Of a DNA stretch of 12,550 bases, positions 2,097 to 12,482 are shown one piece after another; position 1 is the first letter of the stretch; every line of letters begins with the position of its first letter. This stretch comes from Promethearchaeota archaeon. Lineage in GTDB: Archaea; Asgardarchaeota; Lokiarchaeia; Sigynarchaeales; SOKP01. The DNA is taken from NCBI GenBank assembly GCA_019894735.1, contig JAGXOB010000001.1:1-12550 (forward strand), given 5' to 3'. Both the position numbers and the translations under genes were made by a program. A model generated the notes under the pieces. The model searched no databases. It was not told where the DNA came from and saw nothing but the letters and a program-made list of their open reading frames with translations.

Positions 2097-3215
2097 ATGT
2101 TTCAGGTTTCCTGCTTGCTTTTAATCAATACAAATCAGATAATACAAGTTCAAGCTTCTACACCTAATCCCGGGCCACGAGCTGGGCATCAAATGGTATA
2201 CGATGCAGGATCTAAAGAAATTGTCTTATTTGGGGGTATTGTAGAAGATGGTGATCATACACCGTTACCGAATATTTGGAGATATAATTTTGTTAATCAA
2301 CAATGGCGTAAAATTACACCTGAGGTCTCTCCTTCTCCTCGATTTAATCATAAAATGGTGTACATTCCTCTTAATCACACTGTGTTGTTATACGGTGGTC
2401 TTAATACTACGAATCACGTATGGTTAGGGGATACATGGTTGTATAACCTCCAAACAAATGAATGGATAAACAAAAACCCCGGAGTCTCTCCTCCCAAGTG
2501 TTCCGATACGGGGTTAATATACGATTCCCATACGCATCGTGTACTATTATTTGGAGGCTTTCTTAATAGTATACGTTACAATAAATTATATGAATATAAT
2601 ATTAATTTGAATAACTGGACGGAAGTAAGTGATTTAAACACCCCCTCGGCAAGATATGGTCATTCACTAATTTATAACAATATGGATAACATGACTTACC
2701 TTTTTGGGGGGCGGACCTCGGTTTATAAAAGAGATTTGTGGAAATACAATCAATCTTCTTTTAATTGGAGTCAAATTTCTAGTGTTACTACACCCCCAAT
2801 TAGATATTGGCATGATATGACTTATGTAAATGATTTGAATGTCGGATTTCTATTCGGAGGGAGAAACGCAGAAGTATTAGATGACACTTGGTTTTTTAAT
2901 TTTGATAGCTCTGATTGGGTTAATCCTACTCCGGAACATTCTCCATCCCCAAGGCTGCTATTTAGTATGATCTATAATAGCAATGATAAACGAGTATATC
3001 TTTACGGAGGAATGGGTGAATCTTCAGCAAGAAATTATGATGACTTCTGGAGTTTCGATTTTACTTCAAATAGGTGGGAACAAATCCAAGGCATTCCAGA
3101 TATACTCCAGTTTTTTATAGATTATTGGTGGAGTTTTGCATTAATTGCTATCGTGGGTGTAGGCAGTTTTATTGGACTTAGATATCGAAAAAATAAGCGA
3201 AATGACAAAAAATGA
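2097..3215 (+). CDS. Membrane-anchored kelch-repeat (beta-propeller) protein
   Basis: Six kelch repeats of about 50 residues fill residues 28-330. The diagnostic di-glycines are at 45-47 (FGG), 99-101 (YGG), 152-154, 203-205, 253-255 (FGG) and 303-305 (YGG), each followed by a W-x-Y/F-N/D strand and a Trp. Together they should form one beta-propeller, a protein- or glycan-binding platform. Residues 340-361 form a transmembrane helix followed by a basic tail (RYRKNKRNDKK), so the propeller probably faces outside and the tail the cytoplasm. The N-terminus is hydrophobic but has no charged n-region. Codons in frame upstream of the ATG encode KKAYVRKIILFGLI without a usable start, while an ATG at 2065 is in another frame. 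One extra base in the A run at 2072-2076 would join them into MLEKIILFGLIMFQ, a normal signal peptide. The start is therefore uncertain. Confidence 0.88.
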   Translation: MFQVSCLLLINTNQIIQVQASTPNPGPRAGHQMVYDAGSKEIVLFGGIVEDGDHTPLPNIWRYNFVNQQWRKITPEVSPSPRFNHKMVYIPLNHTVLLYGGLNTTNHVWLGDTWLYNLQTNEWINKNPGVSPPKCSDTGLIYDSHTHRVLLFGGFLNSIRYNKLYEYNINLNNWTEVSDLNTPSARYGHSLIYNNMDNMTYLFGGRTSVYKRDLWKYNQSSFNWSQISSVTTPPIRYWHDMTYVNDLNVGFLFGGRNAEVLDDTWFFNFDSSDWVNPTPEHSPSPRLLFSMIYNSNDKRVYLYGGMGESSARNYDDFWSFDFTSNRWEQIQGIPDILQFFIDYWWSFALIAIVGVGSFIGLRYRKNKRNDKK

Positions 3216-3330: not shown

Positions 3331-3993
3331 ATGCCAAATCCTTTAATATCTCATCAAGTACCAGGATTATTACTTAAAAGGAAGTATCCCAAGAGGATTG
3401 ATGGAACTGCTATTTGTTTGGGTGCTTTCGCTCCCGATCTCAGCATTCTTTTCGAACCTTTTATGTACTCCTTCCCATTTAGACATATAACGCACAGTTT
3501 TCTTGGGTTGCTCATATGGGTTGCTCCAATTACTATTATGCTGACTATAATATTTTCTAGATACATTGGGCCGAGAATCTCTAAGATTGCGATGAAGGAG
3601 GGGAGAATTTACAGGCTCGTGGCTTATTTTGGATTTGATGAGTTACTTCACTTAAAAAAGAAGAGATTTAACAAGCGTTTTTATATTGTCGCGTTTTATT
3701 CTGCGTTAATTGGGGGATTGACTCATTTTTTAATAGATTTACCTGCTCATGGAATTATCGAATTGTTTTTTCCTTGGACTGTCTTTTCGCATCCGGAATT
3801 CTTATTTATAACAATATTTGATTTTGGATTACCACCTTTAGTTATTGATAGATGGCAAATTAATAGTGTTATTACATTGTTTGAACTCATCTGGTATATT
3901 GAAGATCTTATTCTTATGGTAATTTCGCTCTTTCTTTTAAGAATGATTAAGAAACATAAATTGATAGAAAGCTGGTACAGTAATGAACTATAA
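3331..3993 (+). CDS. DUF4184 family membrane protein, paralogue 1 (220 aa)
   Basis: The start MPNPLISHQVPGLLLKRKYP, followed by DGTAICLGAFAPDL, is typical of DUF4184 integral membrane proteins of unknown function. Conserved polar residues stand out: H8, D36, H52 and H55 (RHITHS), then H132, D136 and H140 in GGLTHFLIDLPAH. This His/Asp pattern at membrane edges resembles a metal site, as in the related YdjM/DUF457 metal-dependent hydrolase-like proteins, but no activity is established. About five hydrophobic segments are visible (for example 56-77, 117-135, 154-170, 180-204). The protein shares its whole length with the gene at 5118-5705 but has about seven extra residues between D36 and H52 and about eighteen more near residues 160-180. 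The ATG is confirmed by the identical N-terminus of the paralogue. The likely promoter is the AT-rich ATTTAAATAAG near 3275. Confidence 0.85.
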   Translation: MPNPLISHQVPGLLLKRKYPKRIDGTAICLGAFAPDLSILFEPFMYSFPFRHITHSFLGLLIWVAPITIMLTIIFSRYIGPRISKIAMKEGRIYRLVAYFGFDELLHLKKKRFNKRFYIVAFYSALIGGLTHFLIDLPAHGIIELFFPWTVFSHPEFLFITIFDFGLPPLVIDRWQINSVITLFELIWYIEDLILMVISLFLLRMIKKHKLIESWYSNEL

Positions 3994-5117: not shown

Positions 5118-5705
5118 ATGCCTAATCCGATAATTTCTCATCAAGCCCCGGCGCTCTATTTAAAAACGAAGTTTCCCAAGTGGATTGATGATGTTGCAAT
5201 CTGTATTGGCGCTTTGGTTCCAGATCTTGTAATTAGTAATGAGTTAAGGCACATATCTCACAGTTTATTAGGACAAATATATTGGACCGTTCCTTTAACA
5301 GTAATCTTAAGTATTTTATACTGTAAATATATTACCTCCGTTTTATCAAATATTGCAAGGAAAAAAGGATTCATTCCTAACCTTTTACAATATTTTGGAG
5401 TAGACGATTGGGGGATAACAAAAAGCAAGAAGTTTGACAAAAGATTCTTCGTTGTAGCGTCCTATTCAGCGCTAATTGGAGGATTAACTCACCTTTTATT
5501 TGACTTTCCATCCCATCCTTATGTCGAACTATTCTTTCCTTGGGACATTTTCCCATTATATGAGTTTTTGTGGATTTCTGGAGTGATTTGGGTTATCGAA
5601 GATATAAGTTTATTTATAACTTCTCTTTATCTTCTCAGAATGATTAAAAAAAAGGATTTGATAAGAAGCTGGTATACCCTAAAACTCAATTATTCTAAAA
5701 AATAA
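5118..5705 (+). CDS. DUF4184 family membrane protein, paralogue 2 (195 aa)
   Basis: This is a close full-length paralogue of the gene at 3331-3993. It has the same start (MPNPIISHQAPALYLKTKFP), the same VPDL motif at D36, RHISHS (H45, H48), SALIGGLTHLLFDFPSH (H125, D129, H133) and the same C-terminal stretch SLYLLRMIKKKDLIRSWY. All putative metal-ligand His/Asp residues are kept in both copies. It is shorter because the loop after D36 and the loop after FPWDIF are deleted relative to copy 1, removing about one hydrophobic segment. The paralogues are in the same orientation and separated by two unrelated genes, so they probably arose by local duplication followed by insertion. Function is unknown. 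The Rag-like GTPase gene follows 130 nt downstream on the same strand. Confidence 0.86.
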   Translation: MPNPIISHQAPALYLKTKFPKWIDDVAICIGALVPDLVISNELRHISHSLLGQIYWTVPLTVILSILYCKYITSVLSNIARKKGFIPNLLQYFGVDDWGITKSKKFDKRFFVVASYSALIGGLTHLLFDFPSHPYVELFFPWDIFPLYEFLWISGVIWVIEDISLFITSLYLLRMIKKKDLIRSWYTLKLNYSKK

Positions 5706-5821: not shown

Positions 5822-5827
5822 GAGGTG
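5822..5827 (+). promoter_or_regulatory. Ribosome binding site deciding the TTG start of the Rag-like GTPase
   Basis: GAGGTG lies 8 nt before the TTG at 5836, while no such site precedes the alternative ATG at 5887. The sequence therefore favours the longer product with a 17-residue acidic N-terminal extension. Confidence 0.5.
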
Positions 5828-5835
5828 TAAATCTA

Positions 5836-6801
5836 TTGGAAGATTCTTTAATATTTCATGAAAAGGAAGGGGAACCTTCAGAAAAAATGCACAAGATATT
5901 GTTTACCGGTTTGGATGGCGCAGGTAAAACGAGTATCATTTTAGCTTTACAGAGGGAATTCTCAAAAATTGCTTTAATTGAGCCAACGAGGGGTGCTCAA
6001 AGGAGCAGCTTTAATTTGTTGGGAAGGGAGATCACTGAATGGGATTTAGGAGGTCAAGAAAGTTATCGTATATCCTACCTAGAAAACCCAAGTAAGTATT
6101 TTGACGATACAGAAGTTGCAATCTATGTCATTGATATACTCGATGCAGCTCGTACCAAGAAATCTCTGAGTTACTTATATGAGGTCGTTGATAAATTCAA
6201 AGAATTACAAATTGAACCCCATATCAACATTTTCTTTCATAAATACGATCCTAAATTAATTCATAGCGTTGAAAATCAAATTAAATCTGAAGTGCTTGCG
6301 TTAAATAAAGATATTGTTAAAAGGTTGGATTACGAGAAGCTTCAATTCTTTACCACATCAATATATAATCCATATACTATCATGAACGCGATGTCTAAAG
6401 TACTGCTTAACTTATTTCCAAAAGCAGAGTTGTTACAAAAAACGATTGTTCAATTTGCGAAAAAACTAGATTGCGAAGGATTACTTATTACCGATCAAAA
6501 TTCGATTATTTTGGGTTCCTGCTTCAAGGATGATGAGTCAAAAAAACTATTGAGTAGCACGATTGCTTACTTTTTGACACTTAACGATGTTTTTGAAGAC
6601 ATGGGCCTAGAACAACAAGAAGATCAAATAGTTGTGAGAAAAAAGGGAAAATACTTTTTGTTCAAACCAGTCACTTTACAAGAAAAAGCTTTACCATACT
6701 ACATGCTAGTACTGAAAAGTCGCGATCCTATGGGGATCTATTTTATGAACAAAGATTTTAACGCGTTTGTTCACATGTTCAACAATCTTGTTAAAAGCTA
6801 A
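5836..6801 (+). CDS. Rag/Gtr-like GTPase with C-terminal roadblock-like domain (321 aa)
   Basis: Residues 18-195 form a Ras-superfamily GTPase. G1/Walker A is GLDGAGKTS (25-33), G3 is WDLGGQES (69-76), G4 is HKYD (135-138) and G5 is TTSI (173-176). The G4 form H-K-x-D instead of N-K-x-D, together with YVID and the sequence LFPKAELLQKTIVQFAK (193-209) leading into a second domain, matches eukaryotic RagA/RagC and Gtr1/Gtr2. In those proteins the C-terminal roadblock domain mediates dimerisation. Residues 210-321 fit such a domain by position and strand pattern (EGLLITDQNSIILGSCF). In eukaryotes these GTPases signal nutrient status to TORC1 at the lysosome; in archaea the role is unknown. The TTG at 5836 is chosen because GAGGTG (5822-5827) lies 8 nt upstream. 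ATG at 5887 (M18) would also keep every motif. Confidence 0.92.
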   Translation: MEDSLIFHEKEGEPSEKMHKILFTGLDGAGKTSIILALQREFSKIALIEPTRGAQRSSFNLLGREITEWDLGGQESYRISYLENPSKYFDDTEVAIYVIDILDAARTKKSLSYLYEVVDKFKELQIEPHINIFFHKYDPKLIHSVENQIKSEVLALNKDIVKRLDYEKLQFFTTSIYNPYTIMNAMSKVLLNLFPKAELLQKTIVQFAKKLDCEGLLITDQNSIILGSCFKDDESKKLLSSTIAYFLTLNDVFEDMGLEQQEDQIVVRKKGKYFLFKPVTLQEKALPYYMLVLKSRDPMGIYFMNKDFNAFVHMFNNLVKS

Positions 6802-8109: not shown

Positions 8110-9144
8110 TTAAATATATCTTTGGCTAACATTCGTTTGAAAAACCTGCTCTCTTTGCTCTGTTTGCTGTGTACTACCCCCTCTCTTCGACACGATATAA
8201 AACTGAACTAACGAATTATCGTGTACGAGCGTATTACCGCGCCATTTACTATTTTTCGACTCGAACTCAACTACTTCACCTAGGCCTATACCCTTTCGAG
8301 TGGTGAAATTCAAATTGAGGCTCTGTAAAGCTTTAATCAAACCATTTTCACTTAAATCTGAGTTTTCTTTAAACTTTTTGTTTTTAAACCTCAAAGATTC
8401 GATGGCAAACGCTTTAAGGATGTCCTTACTCATGACTTCCCATACTTGTACGTTAGCGTAGAACTCTATACCAATGAACTCACCATTGATAAAAGTAGCA
8501 ATTCCACACTGATTCTCAACATTTCTAAACGAACTTTCAATTTTCTCCGTTTCTTTATCGATGTTCTCAGTCATTTCAAGGTAACTCTGAGTTGGGGCAA
8601 TGTTAGTATTATAGTTCATTTCAGTTCTATACGATTGGATTTCGTTCCAGACTGAACCTTGACCAGCAGATGATAACGCTTCGTAAGCAACGTTGGGATG
8701 TAATCTTGTATTGGAAGATTTAAATCCTTTTCCCTCGCGATAATTCCATCTGGATTGTTCGACGCATTTCGCGGGAATCGTGTATTTTTGCTCCATTGCT
8801 CCTTTATTGGTACTCGAAATGTTTTGCTTTCCACCTGCTGCCAATAGGATCGGTTCCCAAATGGTTCTATCTTGTTTTCCTCCATGAACCGTTACACCAA
8901 AAGGGATTAGAACTTGTTTATCGCTATTGTTAATAACTTCCAATTGACTAACGGTATCTGTTTCATTTATGCTAATTAAGCCGAGCTCTTCGGCTTCTTT
9001 AACGCTAATAAATTCTAAGGTTTTACCCTTATAGATAATCGGGATAATTGTCATATTACCAAAAGATTGAGGTTTTTCAAATTCCAAAATTTCTAATGGA
9101 TTTTCAAACAACATTTCTACAATTTGAACGCTTATATTATTCAT
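8110..9144 (-). CDS. ARPP-1 family protein (344 aa)
   Basis: The sequence matches the ARPP-1 family (ADP-ribosylglycohydrolase and rhodanese-phosphatase associated protein domain). It has an N-terminal strand region with the family's pattern of a Gly/Asn-initiated strand (SFGNMTIIPI, 27-36). This is followed by a FISVKEAEELGLISINE segment (45-61), then LEVINNSDKQVLIPFG and HGGKQDRTI (87-95), IPAKCVEQSRWNYR (123-136), a Gly/Val-Trp segment (GQGSVWNEI, 161-169) and CGIATFINGEFIGIEFY (213-229). Length is normal for the family, and a Gln/Thr/Ser-rich tail (321-344) is probably disordered. The biochemical activity is unknown; comparative genomics has linked the domain to ADP-ribose/NAD-related enzymes. 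It is the second gene of an operon with the winged-helix regulator. GGAGG (9155-9159), inside the end of that gene, lies 10 nt before this ATG. Confidence 0.85.
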   Translation of the reverse strand: MNNISVQIVEMLFENPLEILEFEKPQSFGNMTIIPIIYKGKTLEFISVKEAEELGLISINETDTVSQLEVINNSDKQVLIPFGVTVHGGKQDRTIWEPILLAAGGKQNISSTNKGAMEQKYTIPAKCVEQSRWNYREGKGFKSSNTRLHPNVAYEALSSAGQGSVWNEIQSYRTEMNYNTNIAPTQSYLEMTENIDKETEKIESSFRNVENQCGIATFINGEFIGIEFYANVQVWEVMSKDILKAFAIESLRFKNKKFKENSDLSENGLIKALQSLNLNFTTRKGIGLGEVVEFESKNSKWRGNTLVHDNSLVQFYIVSKRGGSTQQTEQREQVFQTNVSQRYI

Positions 9145-9147
9145 AAT

Positions 9148-9576
9148 CTACTTTCCTCCTTTTTTTTTATTGTTGCGTTCTTTTTTATGCTCTTCTTCTA
9201 CATTTGCCTCTTCATAAAGAGGGGCTATAAATTGGTTAGCTATCTCTTTTCCGTTCTTTGTAAGTTCAACCCCATAAGAAATTTTTAACTTTCCGTTCTC
9301 CGTTACTTTATTAACTATTGCACCTTTCAGTTTTGAAACTTCTTCTTCTGAAACTTCCATTTTCTGAGTTTTAATGATTCCCCCCCTCTTTAACGCACCT
9401 AAATGATAATTAATGTTTTGGCGTTCAACTTCCAATTTATTTGCTAAATCCACAGGTCGTTGAGAACTTGAAGAAAGTTCCCTAAGTATTTCTACTCTCA
9501 TAGGATTTCGAAACACAAGACCCACCTTTTTAAAGATTGGCTTTTTTTTCTCTTTTTTTTCATCATTTTTAGGCAT
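9148..9576 (-). CDS. ArsR-like winged-helix transcriptional regulator (142 aa)
   Basis: Residues 15-70 form a winged helix-turn-helix: VGLVFRNPMRVEILREL (helices 1-2), RPVDLANKLEV (helix), then the recognition helix ERQNINYHLGALKRGGII (51-68), typical of ArsR-family DNA-binding domains. Residues 71-112 form the wing and a strand-rich part (KLKISYGVELTKNGKEIA). Both ends are highly charged, with KKEKKK at the start and KKERNNKKKGGK at the end. No Cys or His cluster for metal sensing is seen, so the ligand is unknown. The gene is first in an operon with ARPP-1 (TAG, then 3 nt, then ATG). Twin near-palindromes lie on its own promoter (9592-9624), so it probably represses or otherwise controls its own operon. 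The ATG at 9576 has no Shine-Dalgarno; the predicted leader is about 19 nt. Confidence 0.88.
   Translation of the reverse strand: MPKNDEKKEKKKPIFKKVGLVFRNPMRVEILRELSSSSQRPVDLANKLEVERQNINYHLGALKRGGIIKTQKMEVSEEEVSKLKGAIVNKVTENGKLKISYGVELTKNGKEIANQFIAPLYEEANVEEEHKKERNNKKKGGK
9155..9159 (-). promoter_or_regulatory. Shine-Dalgarno site of the ARPP-1 gene
   Basis: GGAGG on the minus strand encodes the last Gly-Gly of the upstream regulator and also serves the ARPP-1 ATG 10 nt downstream. It is one of the strongest ribosome-binding sites in the window and suggests translational coupling. Confidence 0.65.
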
Positions 9577-9591
9577 AAAAAATCACATTAT

Positions 9592-9625
9592 TTTTTTACT
9601 GTAAAAAATCCTTTTACTATAAAAA
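9592..9625 (-). promoter_or_regulatory. Promoter with two operator-like palindromes for the regulator/ARPP-1 operon
   Basis: Site 1 is a perfect palindrome with 8-bp arms, TTTTTTAC-T-GTAAAAAA (9592-9608). Site 2 is the related TTTTACTATAAAA (9612-9624); together the consensus is TTTTACTRTAAAA. Site 2 overlaps the minus-strand TATA box TTTTTATA (9618-9625). Site 1 covers the predicted transcription start near 9595. The centres are 18 bp apart, close to two helical turns. A bound dimer pair would block TBP and RNA polymerase, which fits autorepression by the adjacent ArsR-like protein. Confidence 0.6.
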
Positions 9626-9730
9626 CAATTATTACTTTTTCTATTTAAATGTTTGTGTTGAGTCTTGATTTTTTTTAAAAAAACAAGCTAAAGAAAAACA
9701 GAAAGAGGATTACTAAGTATCTATATTAAA

Positions 9731-9755
9731 ATTCAGAAGTGAATTCTTAGAGAAT
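9731..9755. other. Hairpin-forming sequence downstream of the 9760-9981 gene
   Basis: AATTC (9730-9734) and GAATT (9741-9745) pair around the loop AGAAGT. An alternative stem ATTCT/AGAAT lies at 9743-9755. The loop region resembles the hairpin at 5724-5744. It follows the stop of the minus-strand gene and may mark its transcript end, without a T run. Confidence 0.25.
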
Positions 9756-9759
9756 CCTG

Positions 9760-9981
9760 CTAAATATTGATACCGACTTTTTCTTGAATGACAAATTTTG
9801 CGGAATTGAACACTTTACCAGCCGTAACTAACCTAGTTTTTCCCATATCTTCTAAATTACCGATATTTTCAAATTTGCTTCTTTTTAAGAATAAATTCAG
9901 GTATTTATGCTCGTTTAATGACATATCTAAAGATTTAAGAAACTTAGGATGACGGTAAATATTCCAATCAATATTTTGCAT
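9760..9981 (-). CDS. Hypothetical small protein (73 aa)
   Basis: The product starts MQNIDWNIYRHPKFLKSLDMS and continues as a basic, probably helical, soluble protein ending FVIQEKVGINI. No motif or family is recognised. An earlier ATG at 10005 would add eight residues (MTLHSNST). The TATA box at 10007-10014 predicts a transcript start near 9984, just before the ATG at 9981, which is why the shorter start is chosen. The well-placed promoter and a balanced composition support a real gene, but its length makes this uncertain. It is divergent from the acyl-CoA synthetase alpha gene, and the 200 nt between them carry both promoters. Confidence 0.5.
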   Translation of the reverse strand: MQNIDWNIYRHPKFLKSLDMSLNEHKYLNLFLKRSKFENIGNLEDMGKTRLVTAGKVFNSAKFVIQEKVGINI

Positions 9982-10006
9982 GGTACTATTGGAATGTAAA
10001 GTCATG

Positions 10007-10014
10007 ATTATAAA
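10007..10014 (-). promoter_or_regulatory. TATA box of the 73-aa minus-strand gene
   Basis: On the minus strand this reads TTTATAAT, preceded by CC (a BRE-like flank is weak). Its centre is about 29 nt from the ATG at 9981, giving a nearly leaderless message. Confidence 0.4.
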
Positions 10015-10138
10015 GGAGATGACTATGAGAGTTTTCTATTATTTCGACCTAGAATAATACTAAAGATATATTTCGAATAATTTAACTTGATTCTTTCTTT
10101 TTCTAACCCAACTGGTTATGTTTTTTAACACATTCTGT

Positions 10139-10164
10139 CAGATTTAATCTGTAAGATTTAACCT
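10139..10164 (+). promoter_or_regulatory. Repeated operator-like sites at the acyl-CoA synthetase promoter
   Basis: CAGATTTAATCTG (10139-10151) is a perfect palindrome with 6-bp arms around one T. Its inner part AGATTTAAYCT recurs 14 nt later at 10154-10164. The second site sits at the distance from the ATG (10185) expected for a TATA element of a leaderless transcript, so a bound regulator could control it. Confidence 0.35.
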
Positions 10165-10184
10165 TAAAAAAGTCACATGGTTGC

Positions 10185-11663
10185 ATGGTATTGGTAAATT
10201 CGGATATAATTGATGTGTTTTTGCACCCAAAATCTGTTGCTGTCATCGGAGCCTCAAAAAAATTAACAAAGGGAGGGTTCCGAATCACAACAAACCTTAT
10301 TACTAACAACTACAAAGGAAAGATTTATCTTGTTAACCCAAACGCAGATGGTAAGCTGTACGATTTAGAATTCAAGAAATCAATTTTGGATATTGAAGAA
10401 GATGTCGATATTGCGATATTTTACGTTCCAAATAGATTTATTCCTGACCTTCTAAAGGAGTGTATTGAAAAAGGCGTTAAAGGTGCGATCATTGAAGCAT
10501 CAGGATTCGAAGAAGTCGGTGACAAAGGCTTGGAATTGAAAAAAAAAATAGTCGAAATAACACAAAATTTTACTAAAATCAGAATCGTCGGGCCTAATTG
10601 CATGGGGCTGAGTACTTTTGAAGGGGATAGCGACAGTGAGGAAAAAGAAGGATTTTTCTCTGGATTTGGCGTATATACTACTTTTAAGAGAGGTAATATT
10701 GGGATAATTAGTCAATCAGGAATGCTGAATGGGGGATATCTAATGCATTTAGCGACCAAATATCCAAACTTAGGATTTAGATATTCCTGTTCGGTTGGAA
10801 ATAAAACAGACTTAAGCGAAATCGAATTTTTAGAATATATGCTAACGGACGACACTGTGAATGTTATTGCTATTTATTTAGAATCATTTAAAGATCCAAG
10901 AAAATTCATTGAATTGTGTAAAAAAGCTAGATCTATGCCAAATAAAACTATAATCTTGCTACGAGGGGGAATTACCAGCCAAGGTCAAAAGGCTGCTCGT
11001 AGCCATACGGGTTCTATGGCTGAAAATGCGCGTTTGATCAAAGGAATTATTAAACAATCGGGAGTACTTCACGTAAATAGTTTTTACGAATTATTTCAGT
11101 ACGCTCGTTCGTTTTCATTCATCTATAAATCCGGAAAAACATTCCCCAAAAAAGGTAACGTCTCATTTGTGGCAGGTTCTGGTGGTGCTGGAACAATTAC
11201 TGCAGATCTTACTATGAAATACGGTTTAAAACTACCCATTCTAGACGATAAAACCTACAGTGTCCTCCTTGACCTTTTTCCCGATTGGATGCCTCCAAAT
11301 CGGTTTGCTTTTGTAGATATTTGGCCTGCAATGGAAAAAGCTATGATGAACCATGTAAAACCCGAATTTGTGTCAACTCAAGTCTATAAAGCCTTGGTAA
11401 ACGATCCTAATATAGAAGGAATAATTAGCATGCTATTTTGCTCAAAGCAATTCAGAGGAATGAATGATATTGATGAAATTATTGAAATCGCTGACCAAGC
11501 TCCTAAACCATTTTATTTCTGGTTAGTGGGTGATGCAAAGGAAGTACGGAGAATATCAAACCAATTAGGACAACATAATATGCCTAATTTTCCTAGTTTG
11601 GAAGAAATGGTTAAGAACTTTAGTATTTTAGTTCAGGGATCAAGAGATGCTAACTTAACATAA
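10185..11663 (+). CDS. ADP-forming acyl-CoA synthetase, alpha subunit (CoA-binding and ligase domains, 492 aa)
   Basis: These enzymes convert acyl-CoA, ADP and phosphate to the acid, ATP and CoA during peptide or sugar fermentation in archaea. Domain 1 (about 9-145) is a CoA-binding Rossmann fold: FLHPKSVAVIGAS, IYLVNPN (47-53), ASGF (105-108), VGPNCMG (135-141). Domain 2 (170-310) has GIISQSG, VGNKTDLSEIEFLEYM (204-219), and the catalytic phosphohistidine site ARSHTGSMA with His274. Domain 3 (322-480) begins GNVSFVAGSGGAGTITAD. Length fits the alpha subunit. The usual NPVD motif of domain 3 is replaced by a longer WMPPNRFAFVDIWPAME (368-384), and residues 146-160 hold an acidic insertion. 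No beta subunit (ATP-grasp) lies in the window. ATG at 10185 is the first in-frame start. Substrate is unknown. Confidence 0.9.
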   Translation: MVLVNSDIIDVFLHPKSVAVIGASKKLTKGGFRITTNLITNNYKGKIYLVNPNADGKLYDLEFKKSILDIEEDVDIAIFYVPNRFIPDLLKECIEKGVKGAIIEASGFEEVGDKGLELKKKIVEITQNFTKIRIVGPNCMGLSTFEGDSDSEEKEGFFSGFGVYTTFKRGNIGIISQSGMLNGGYLMHLATKYPNLGFRYSCSVGNKTDLSEIEFLEYMLTDDTVNVIAIYLESFKDPRKFIELCKKARSMPNKTIILLRGGITSQGQKAARSHTGSMAENARLIKGIIKQSGVLHVNSFYELFQYARSFSFIYKSGKTFPKKGNVSFVAGSGGAGTITADLTMKYGLKLPILDDKTYSVLLDLFPDWMPPNRFAFVDIWPAMEKAMMNHVKPEFVSTQVYKALVNDPNIEGIISMLFCSKQFRGMNDIDEIIEIADQAPKPFYFWLVGDAKEVRRISNQLGQHNMPNFPSLEEMVKNFSILVQGSRDANLT

Positions 11664-11761
11664 TTTTTTAATAAACGATATTATTTAACATAACTTAGGA
11701 TAAAAAAAGTATAAAAAACTCAACCTTAAAATCTAAACCCTTCAAGACTGAGATTTGCGAT
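11664..11761. terminator. Short convergent intergenic with T-rich ends
   Basis: The two genes here converge. Right after the stop of the acyl-CoA synthetase gene the plus strand has a T6 run (11664-11669), and on the minus strand A-rich stretches near 11702-11719 read as T runs. Such T tracts are the usual archaeal terminators. A weak 6-bp inverted repeat AAATCT/AGATTT lies between about 11729 and 11757. Confidence 0.4.
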
Positions 11762-12460
11762 CTAAAATTTCACTTTATCTTTTTGTAGTTTCCAAGCTCC
11801 GAATCCTTGAATTAAAAAGCAGAGTAAAAAAGAGTATTGAGATATCTTTTGCATAGACGCTTGTATTGTTAGCCCCTCCAGCGATATGGATTTTGGTATA
11901 CTGACTAAAATTATAGTGTAAATAACTGCTATAATTAACAACGCGATGTATACGAAACCGTATAAATTAGGGTAGTTTTTGTTGTACAGAACGGCAATAG
12001 TAAAAAAAACTATGCCCCCCAAACCGGTAATGTTAAACAAATTAGCAAACAGCAAATGTGTTCTGTCAAAAATATCCCAAGGAGTAAAAATCGTACCGAT
12101 TAAGAAAACTACGGAAGTTAGACAGATGAAAGAACCTATCCTAGCCAATAAGTATTGCTTTTTATCGCTTTTAAAATACGAAGAGATAACGAAGGCAAAG
12201 GGTATGAAAGAAAAACTTAGCAGTAATGCCGTAATTGTAAATATCGTAAAGGAAACGAAATTTGGAGAACCTGAAAGCGCTATAAGGCGCCCCAAATCGC
12301 TAAAAAAATTCCCCCAAAAATCATACCCTGGACTTAGAGGATCTATCATTGTACCTCCCGCGTAAAACAACATTGCAATAGCTGTTAATACTATATATTG
12401 AGCAGGACCGAATATTATAAATAGAGAAGCAAATAATTTCCAATTTTTAATTAACTTCAA
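11762..12460 (-). CDS. DUF998-like six-helix membrane protein (232 aa)
   Basis: Six strongly hydrophobic helices are visible: FIIFGPAQYIVLTAIAMLFYAG, then FTIFTITALLLSFSFIPFAFVISSYF, IGSFICLTSVVFLIGTIF, LFNITGLGGIVFFTIAVLY, FVYIALLIIAVIYTIILVSI and a last one ending IQGFGAWKLQKDK. The loop after helix 1 (PGYDFWGNFFSDLGR, near residues 44-58) is the family signature of DUF998-type and related DRAM/Frag1-like integral membrane proteins. Function is unknown. A TTG at 12472 would add four residues (MVVL). TTG at 12460 is preferred because GGTGG lies 5 nt upstream and the TATA element TATATTATAAG (12483-12493) predicts a start near 12460-12465. It is monocistronic and divergent from whatever lies beyond the right edge. 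Confidence 0.75.
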   Translation of the reverse strand: MKLIKNWKLFASLFIIFGPAQYIVLTAIAMLFYAGGTMIDPLSPGYDFWGNFFSDLGRLIALSGSPNFVSFTIFTITALLLSFSFIPFAFVISSYFKSDKKQYLLARIGSFICLTSVVFLIGTIFTPWDIFDRTHLLFANLFNITGLGGIVFFTIAVLYNKNYPNLYGFVYIALLIIAVIYTIILVSIPKSISLEGLTIQASMQKISQYSFLLCFLIQGFGAWKLQKDKVKF

Positions 12461-12482
12461 TAAAACCACCAAATGGTTATTC

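Follow-up and report, generated by a model that had tools for sequence, protein, structure and literature searches.

The window, by which is meant the whole stretch of DNA that was analysed, comprises 12,550 nt of Promethearchaeota archaeon contig JAGXOB010000001.1. The gene under study occupies positions 5836..6801 of the forward strand, stop included, and its product was identified from the open reading frame (ORF) list, Pfam, alignment and a structure model as a 321-residue Rag-like GTPase with a C-terminal roadblock domain. It is a LokiRagO-type GTPase, a paralogue of the protein deposited as PDB 8YL2, and is not the closest archaeal relative of the eukaryotic nutrient-sensing Rags. The gene starts with TTG, and GAGGTG, a likely ribosome-binding motif, lies 8 nt 5' of the start (5822..5827, forward strand). 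The TTG start, proposed in the original prediction from the sequence, is shared by the orthologues in L001, L003, L004, L005 and L007, and ATG is found in L009; GGTGA precedes the TTG in L001, L003, L004 and L007, and a variant of it in L005. The comparison with L001 gave a nonsynonymous divergence (dN) of 0.084 and a synonymous divergence (dS) of 0.64, with nonsynonymous well under synonymous change in both domains. This excess of synonymous change shows that the gene is real, intact and under purifying selection.

The GTPase motifs, all on the forward strand, are present in the translation as previously described. The P-loop GLDGAGKT corresponds to residues 25-32 (5908..5931), the G3 motif WDLGGQ with Gln74 to residues 69-74 (6040..6057), the G4 motif HKYD, of the Rag-type HKxD form, to residues 135-138 (6238..6249), and the G5 motif TTSI to residues 173-176 (6352..6363). 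WDLGGQ and HKxD were found in all 38 aligned rows and in all of the 120 homologues listed of 700 matches. T51 (5986..5988), invariant in 38/38 rows, is the putative switch I threonine. The Pfam Gtr1_RagA model (PF04670) matched the protein with 86.5 bits against a cut-off of 22, and the Rag-like GTPase domain and the HKxD at G4 of the original prediction are both upheld; a score over the cut-off is not exclusive to it, since the profile gave 33-56 matches per genome at E 0.001 in eight related genomes (G001-G008, completeness unstated), from which the copy counts below were also taken. HKxD was rejected as proof of Rag kinship because it also occurs in the single-domain protein L066 and in several Lokiarchaeal paralogues. 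Conversely, NKxD or SKGD is found at this place in the other two GTPases encoded by a gene cluster described below.

Two further characters are shared with the Rags. Switch II, measured from GGQ to the next strand (6058..6120), has 21 residues in the window protein, 22 in RagA and Gtr1, 20 in RagC and 17 in Arf/ARL3; the automatic count gave 12 residues for two rows in which 21 are counted by eye, and no value for several paralogues. Tran et al. (PMC10933270) note that GTPase-roadblock proteins carry an insert in switch II. Pro195 (6418..6420), between the two domains, is invariant in 38/38 rows and aligns with RagA P182 and RagC P238. The structural alignment of the C-terminal domain, which begins at residue 190 of the window protein, 233 of RagC and 177 of RagA, gives the same register for Pro195, and the automatic pattern for this proline went unmatched in 5 of the 120 homologues. 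In human Rags the corresponding hinge proline sets the stance of the two GTPase heads, according to a 2025 paper (PMC12557722).

The possibility was considered that the C-terminal region does not have a roadblock fold. Residues 190-321 (6403..6798, forward strand) comprise the linker and the C-terminal domain. An AlphaFold2 (AF2) model of the domain alone had a predicted local distance difference test score (pLDDT) of 80.8 and the order helix, two strands, helix, three strands, helix. In the PDB its top structure matches were MglB, further roadblock proteins and the C-terminal domains of proteins of Rag type, and in a PDB profile search 8YL2 was the sole clear relative. The predicted fold and these matches agree with the roadblock domain of the original prediction. 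A match to a TNF ligand (E 0.0012, with no stretch passing alone) was regarded as spurious, as were the weaker matches.

The alignment and structure model also delimit an N-terminal extension of 19 residues (5836..5892, forward strand), of which residues 1-15 have a pLDDT <50. Among the 120 homologues listed of 700 matches, 96 have 19 residues before KILFTGL and 90 have [DE][DEN]S near the N-terminus, so that the length and an EDSLxF-like start are widely kept. The acidity attributed to this extension is not conserved, the extensions of P0031 and P0037 having 3 acidic and 7 basic residues, and it was therefore rejected as a feature.

A tree of 57 GTPase domains was used to place the gene, with support given as paired values; the trees took in Rag, Arf/ARL3 and Rab-like rows, and MglA rows were left out. 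The window gene fell in a 19-row clade (A, 100/99) nested in a 31-row clade with LokiRagO 8YL2 (100/99), and in a second tree it grouped with 8YL2 in a 12-row clade (99/99). Seven further copies form a separate clade B (99/98), and 8YL2 branches outside both the A and the B copies, with a fork support of 90/83. Nine A rows and seven B rows are separated by 16 fixed differences, and neither set has lost its GTPase motifs. Because the position of four copies from G006 and G007 next to the two clades is not settled, A and B are not taken as established sisters.

The archaeal origin given in the original prediction was borne out, and is Lokiarchaeal. The description of the gene as a single-gene relative of the TORC1 GTPases was not sustained in either part. 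RagA/Gtr1 and RagC group with other Lokiarchaeal paralogues (95/98 in one tree, 99/99 in a later one), and a joint clade of the RagO group with RagA/Gtr1 was rejected by the approximately unbiased (AU) test (p 0.0017), so that a special link to the TORC1 GTPases is not supported. By the time joint clades were tested the first tree was already known; the Rag group had been named earlier, in the original prediction. Several rows are long branches, and the exact order of the Rag-grouping rows is therefore unsure. The single-gene reading was rejected because the window protein has 12-19 matches per genome at E 0.001 or better in all eight relatives and RagA/Gtr1 group elsewhere.

Three Gtr/Rag-like proteins of ~400 residues lie closer to the eukaryotic Rags: L095 (G003:C29:72175-73371), L096 (G002:C27:99289-100485) and L097 (G002:C70:109513-110706). 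Genes of this type were found in two of the eight genomes at E 1e-20. Their Gtr1_RagA scores of 140-144 bits are far over that of the window protein, and among the PDB matches of L095 both Gtr1 and RagA rank before LokiRagO. Their C-terminal roadblock matches reached 26-32 bits in the genome scan and, for L095 by hmmscan, 22.6 bits, just under the cut-off. In the group with 99/99 support they stand with L065, RagA/Gtr1 and RagC. A clade of the three with RagA/Gtr1 and RagC but without L065 is absent from the best tree and was not rejected (p 0.259), and a clade with RagA/Gtr1 only gave p 0.148. L095-L097 are better candidates for the archaeal root of the Rags than the window gene. Since related genomes hold genes closer to the eukaryotic Rags, HKxD and a roadblock tail alone do not mark an ancestor of these proteins.

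In a sample of 148 genomes of the phylum, with 15 candidates scored per genome, a match at E 1e-50 or better was found in 32. The nine relatives taken from genome contigs are all named Lokiarchaeota or Lokiarchaeia; close protein homologues are also labelled Hermod-, Hod-, Thor- and Odinarchaeota by their sources, and because these names vary the range of the subfamily beyond Lokiarchaea is unsettled. A-type copies are present in G001-G005 and G008 (by tree), in G129 (by identity) and on the bin49 contig (L007). All seven genomes with A also have a B-like copy, placed by tree in G001-G005 and G008 and, in G129, by identity alone (79% and 49%). B lies in a conserved gene cluster in seven of the eight genomes (G001-G005, G007, G008) and A sits elsewhere; the cluster of G006 has two RagO-type copies in tandem (L045), which belong to neither clade. 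A is most simply explained as an extra copy of the cluster gene, formed in one Lokiarchaeal group, and probably now answers to a signal or partner of its own. In G002 there are two A-type copies ~8 kb apart (L058:5146-6120 and L058:13889-14854).

The cluster itself (L040-L048) was found in 8/8 genomes. With gene names taken from the G003 copies, it comprises MtrH-like, large GTPase, AIRS-domain, SLOG and RagO-type GTPase genes, a 318-363 aa family without assignment, a 263-276 aa family and a second large GTPase, which is split by a stop in G008; an NRDD-type reductase is present in five genomes (L042, L043, L044, L046, L047). Rag-like GTPases thus adjoin one-carbon and nucleotide enzymes in this cluster. 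The two large GTPases, of 487-500 aa (L042:5634-7136, G4 SKGD; L042:14872-16335, G4 NKFD), were taken to have a putative longin-like N-terminal and a putative roadblock-like C-terminal domain. The second had a Folliculin match at residues 96-154 (18.5 bits, below the cut-off).

In the window, the next gene upstream of the GTPase encodes a DUF4184 protein and the next downstream a convergent TrmO-like protein. Two related DUF4184 proteins (3331-3993 and 5118-5705), both beginning MPNP-ISHQ, lie upstream, as does a Kelch-repeat protein (2097-3215), perhaps exported and anchored, in which hydrophobic stretches were visible by eye close to each terminus. Positions 8110-12472 encode, in order, ARPP-1, an ArsR-like regulator, a small ORF, a CoA-binding/succinyl-CoA-ligase-like protein and a 236-aa protein. 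The same order was found beside the orthologue in L001 and L007, and L058 ends with its first three genes. No other GTPase and no roadblock match emerged as an operon partner in the window when 20 of its 29 listed ORFs were scanned with Pfam.

A separate roadblock protein, F17 (L050:7862-8314, reverse strand; orthologues in L051-L057), occurs in 8/8 genomes, cut by the contig end in G002, with 90-100% identity among the seven full-length rows. The G001 copy scored over the cut-off with both Robl_LC7 (40.4 bits) and MAPKK1_Int (29.7 bits), the latter of which we take to be the LAMTOR3 family, and it matched MglB and the MK-D1 roadblock protein Roadblock3 in the PDB. F17 is the next gene upstream of A, on the same strand, in three of the six genomes with a tree-placed A (G004, G005, G008), the called ORFs being 265-296 nt apart. 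A search with an F17-derived pattern did not find it in the window, nor in the sequence flanking A in G001-G003 and bin49. F17 is a candidate partner of the A-type GTPase, no more.

The reading we favour, and consider rather probable, is that the window protein is a LokiRagO-type switch whose roadblock domain pairs it as a dimer or tetramer, as in the Rags. The C-terminal domains would pair in the manner of Rag GTPases, giving a dimer or possibly a tetramer; a homodimer of the window protein is plausible because the closest solved relative, 8YL2, is titled homotetrameric. Binding of GTP would move switch I and II and, via the hinge Pro195, might reset the stance of the two GTPase heads on a fixed roadblock base. 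The arrangement of the heads could then be read by effectors or scaffolds, for which separate proteins of the roadblock or longin kind are the probable candidates. The pairing and motion in this scheme are drawn from LokiRagO and the Rags, and the protein would act as a regulatory switch; nothing found supports a nutrient role for it.

Several results weigh against this scheme. The oligomeric state is taken over from 8YL2, a relative that is 35-40% identical in structure alignments, and a constraint placing the RagO clade with Arf/ARL3 was not rejected (p 0.355), so that the trees alone do not tell Rag from Arf kinship. The full-length model has a mean pLDDT of 75.7 and its domains stand differently both from those of 8YL2 (rmsd 13.3 over 274 residues) and from those of RagA/Gtr1 (rmsd 8.8-12.9 in the whole-chain rows at the top of the listing). 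Only LokiRagM, which is titled monomeric, comes closer to the model over the full chain (5.7 over 275 residues).

The possibility was also considered that A and B form a Rag-like heterodimer through their roadblock domains, having arisen by a duplication independent of that of RagA and RagC. The presence of a B-like copy in every genome with A, the separation of A and B into supported clades with fixed differences and intact motifs, and the tandem RagO-type copies of G006 are consistent with such a pair, as is the operon pair of Rag-like genes of MK-D1 that was modelled as a heterodimer, as described by Tran et al. (PMC10933270). However, A and B lie apart in the six tree-placed genomes, neither clade includes the tandem copies of G006, and recent duplicates are in any case expected to co-occur. 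The title of the LokiRagO entry calls it a homotetramer, and both copies keep WDLGGQ, with no RagC-like WDFPGQ. We regard the heterodimer as unlikely.

Alternatively, an F17 homodimer may act in trans on the window GTPase as a GTPase-activating protein (GAP) or scaffold, as MglB does with MglA or LAMTOR with the Rags. The position of F17 directly upstream of A in three genomes, its presence in all eight and its profile and structure matches argue for this arrangement. However, F17 was not found by its pattern in the window or in the A flanks already listed, the spacing is wide for an operon, F17 lies between the same genes (F11 and F7) where A is elsewhere, and a GTPase that brings a roadblock domain of its own can pair without another. 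Action in trans is accordingly judged improbable. An independent Lokiarchaeal Rag-style heterodimer, in which the cluster B protein pairs with the window A protein and a LAMTOR3-like roadblock platform is present in some lineages, seems distinctly improbable. Finally, a membrane GTPase of Arf type in which HKxD and a roadblock tail are secondary gains is very unlikely: the Arf model scored over its cut-off (72.4 bits), ARL3 was the best eukaryotic sequence match after two Loki structures and the joint clade with Arf/ARL3 was not rejected, but the protein has HKYD rather than NKxD, a switch II four residues longer, a Rag-like hinge proline, a roadblock domain and no Gly2 for myristoylation in its sequence, and with Rab-like rows as outgroup the best tree puts Arf/ARL3 outside the Rag-like rows, if only at 84/84.

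The favoured LokiRagO-type switch is a type of protein already known and crystallised, to which the window gene adds a new member. Roadblock-fused Rag-like GTPases of Lokiarchaeum had been reported by 2016, according to PMC4917890 (Box 1, citing its reference 23), and those of MK-D1 were modelled in 2024 (PMC10933270). The structures of two Lokiarchaeal examples, LokiRagO and LokiRagM, have been solved; a literature search returned no paper naming 8YL2, LokiRagO or LokiRagM. In the passages from PMC10933270, PMC4917890 and PMC12557722 we found no mention of an A/B split, of the cluster that surrounds B, of F17 as a neighbour or of an archaeal hinge proline, nor, in the first two, of the subfamily to which the window gene belongs, its cluster paralogue or its neighbours. 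With this gene the Rag-like GTPases of Asgard archaea gain a well-bounded subfamily. Its invariant hinge proline suggests that the mechanics at the core of Rag signalling may predate TORC1.

Among known systems, Arf/ARL3 share the GTPase core and WDxGGQ with the window protein and differ by NKxD and a shorter switch II (17 vs 21 residues); we know of no roadblock domain in them. LokiRagM (PDB 8ZLA/9M28, titled monomeric Rag-like) has 24-27% identity and lies outside the RagO clade. The GTPase-roadblock proteins of MK-D1 (PMC10933270) and Lokiarchaeum (PMC4917890) belong to the same architecture class. RagA/Gtr1 and RagC/Gtr2 share HKxD, switch II length, the hinge proline and the C-terminal roadblock domain, but form a separate clade with 14-22% identity over whole chains; an obligate heterodimer, binding to Ragulator and TORC1 and the lysosomal setting are traits of the eukaryotic Rags. 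The nearest known system is LokiRagO (8YL2, 'Homo Tetrameric RagA-like small GTPase from Asgard Lokiarchaeota'), which aligns over residues 12-316 with 250 bits, is 35-40% identical in the structure alignments and has the same domain order, HKxD, hinge proline and switch II length.
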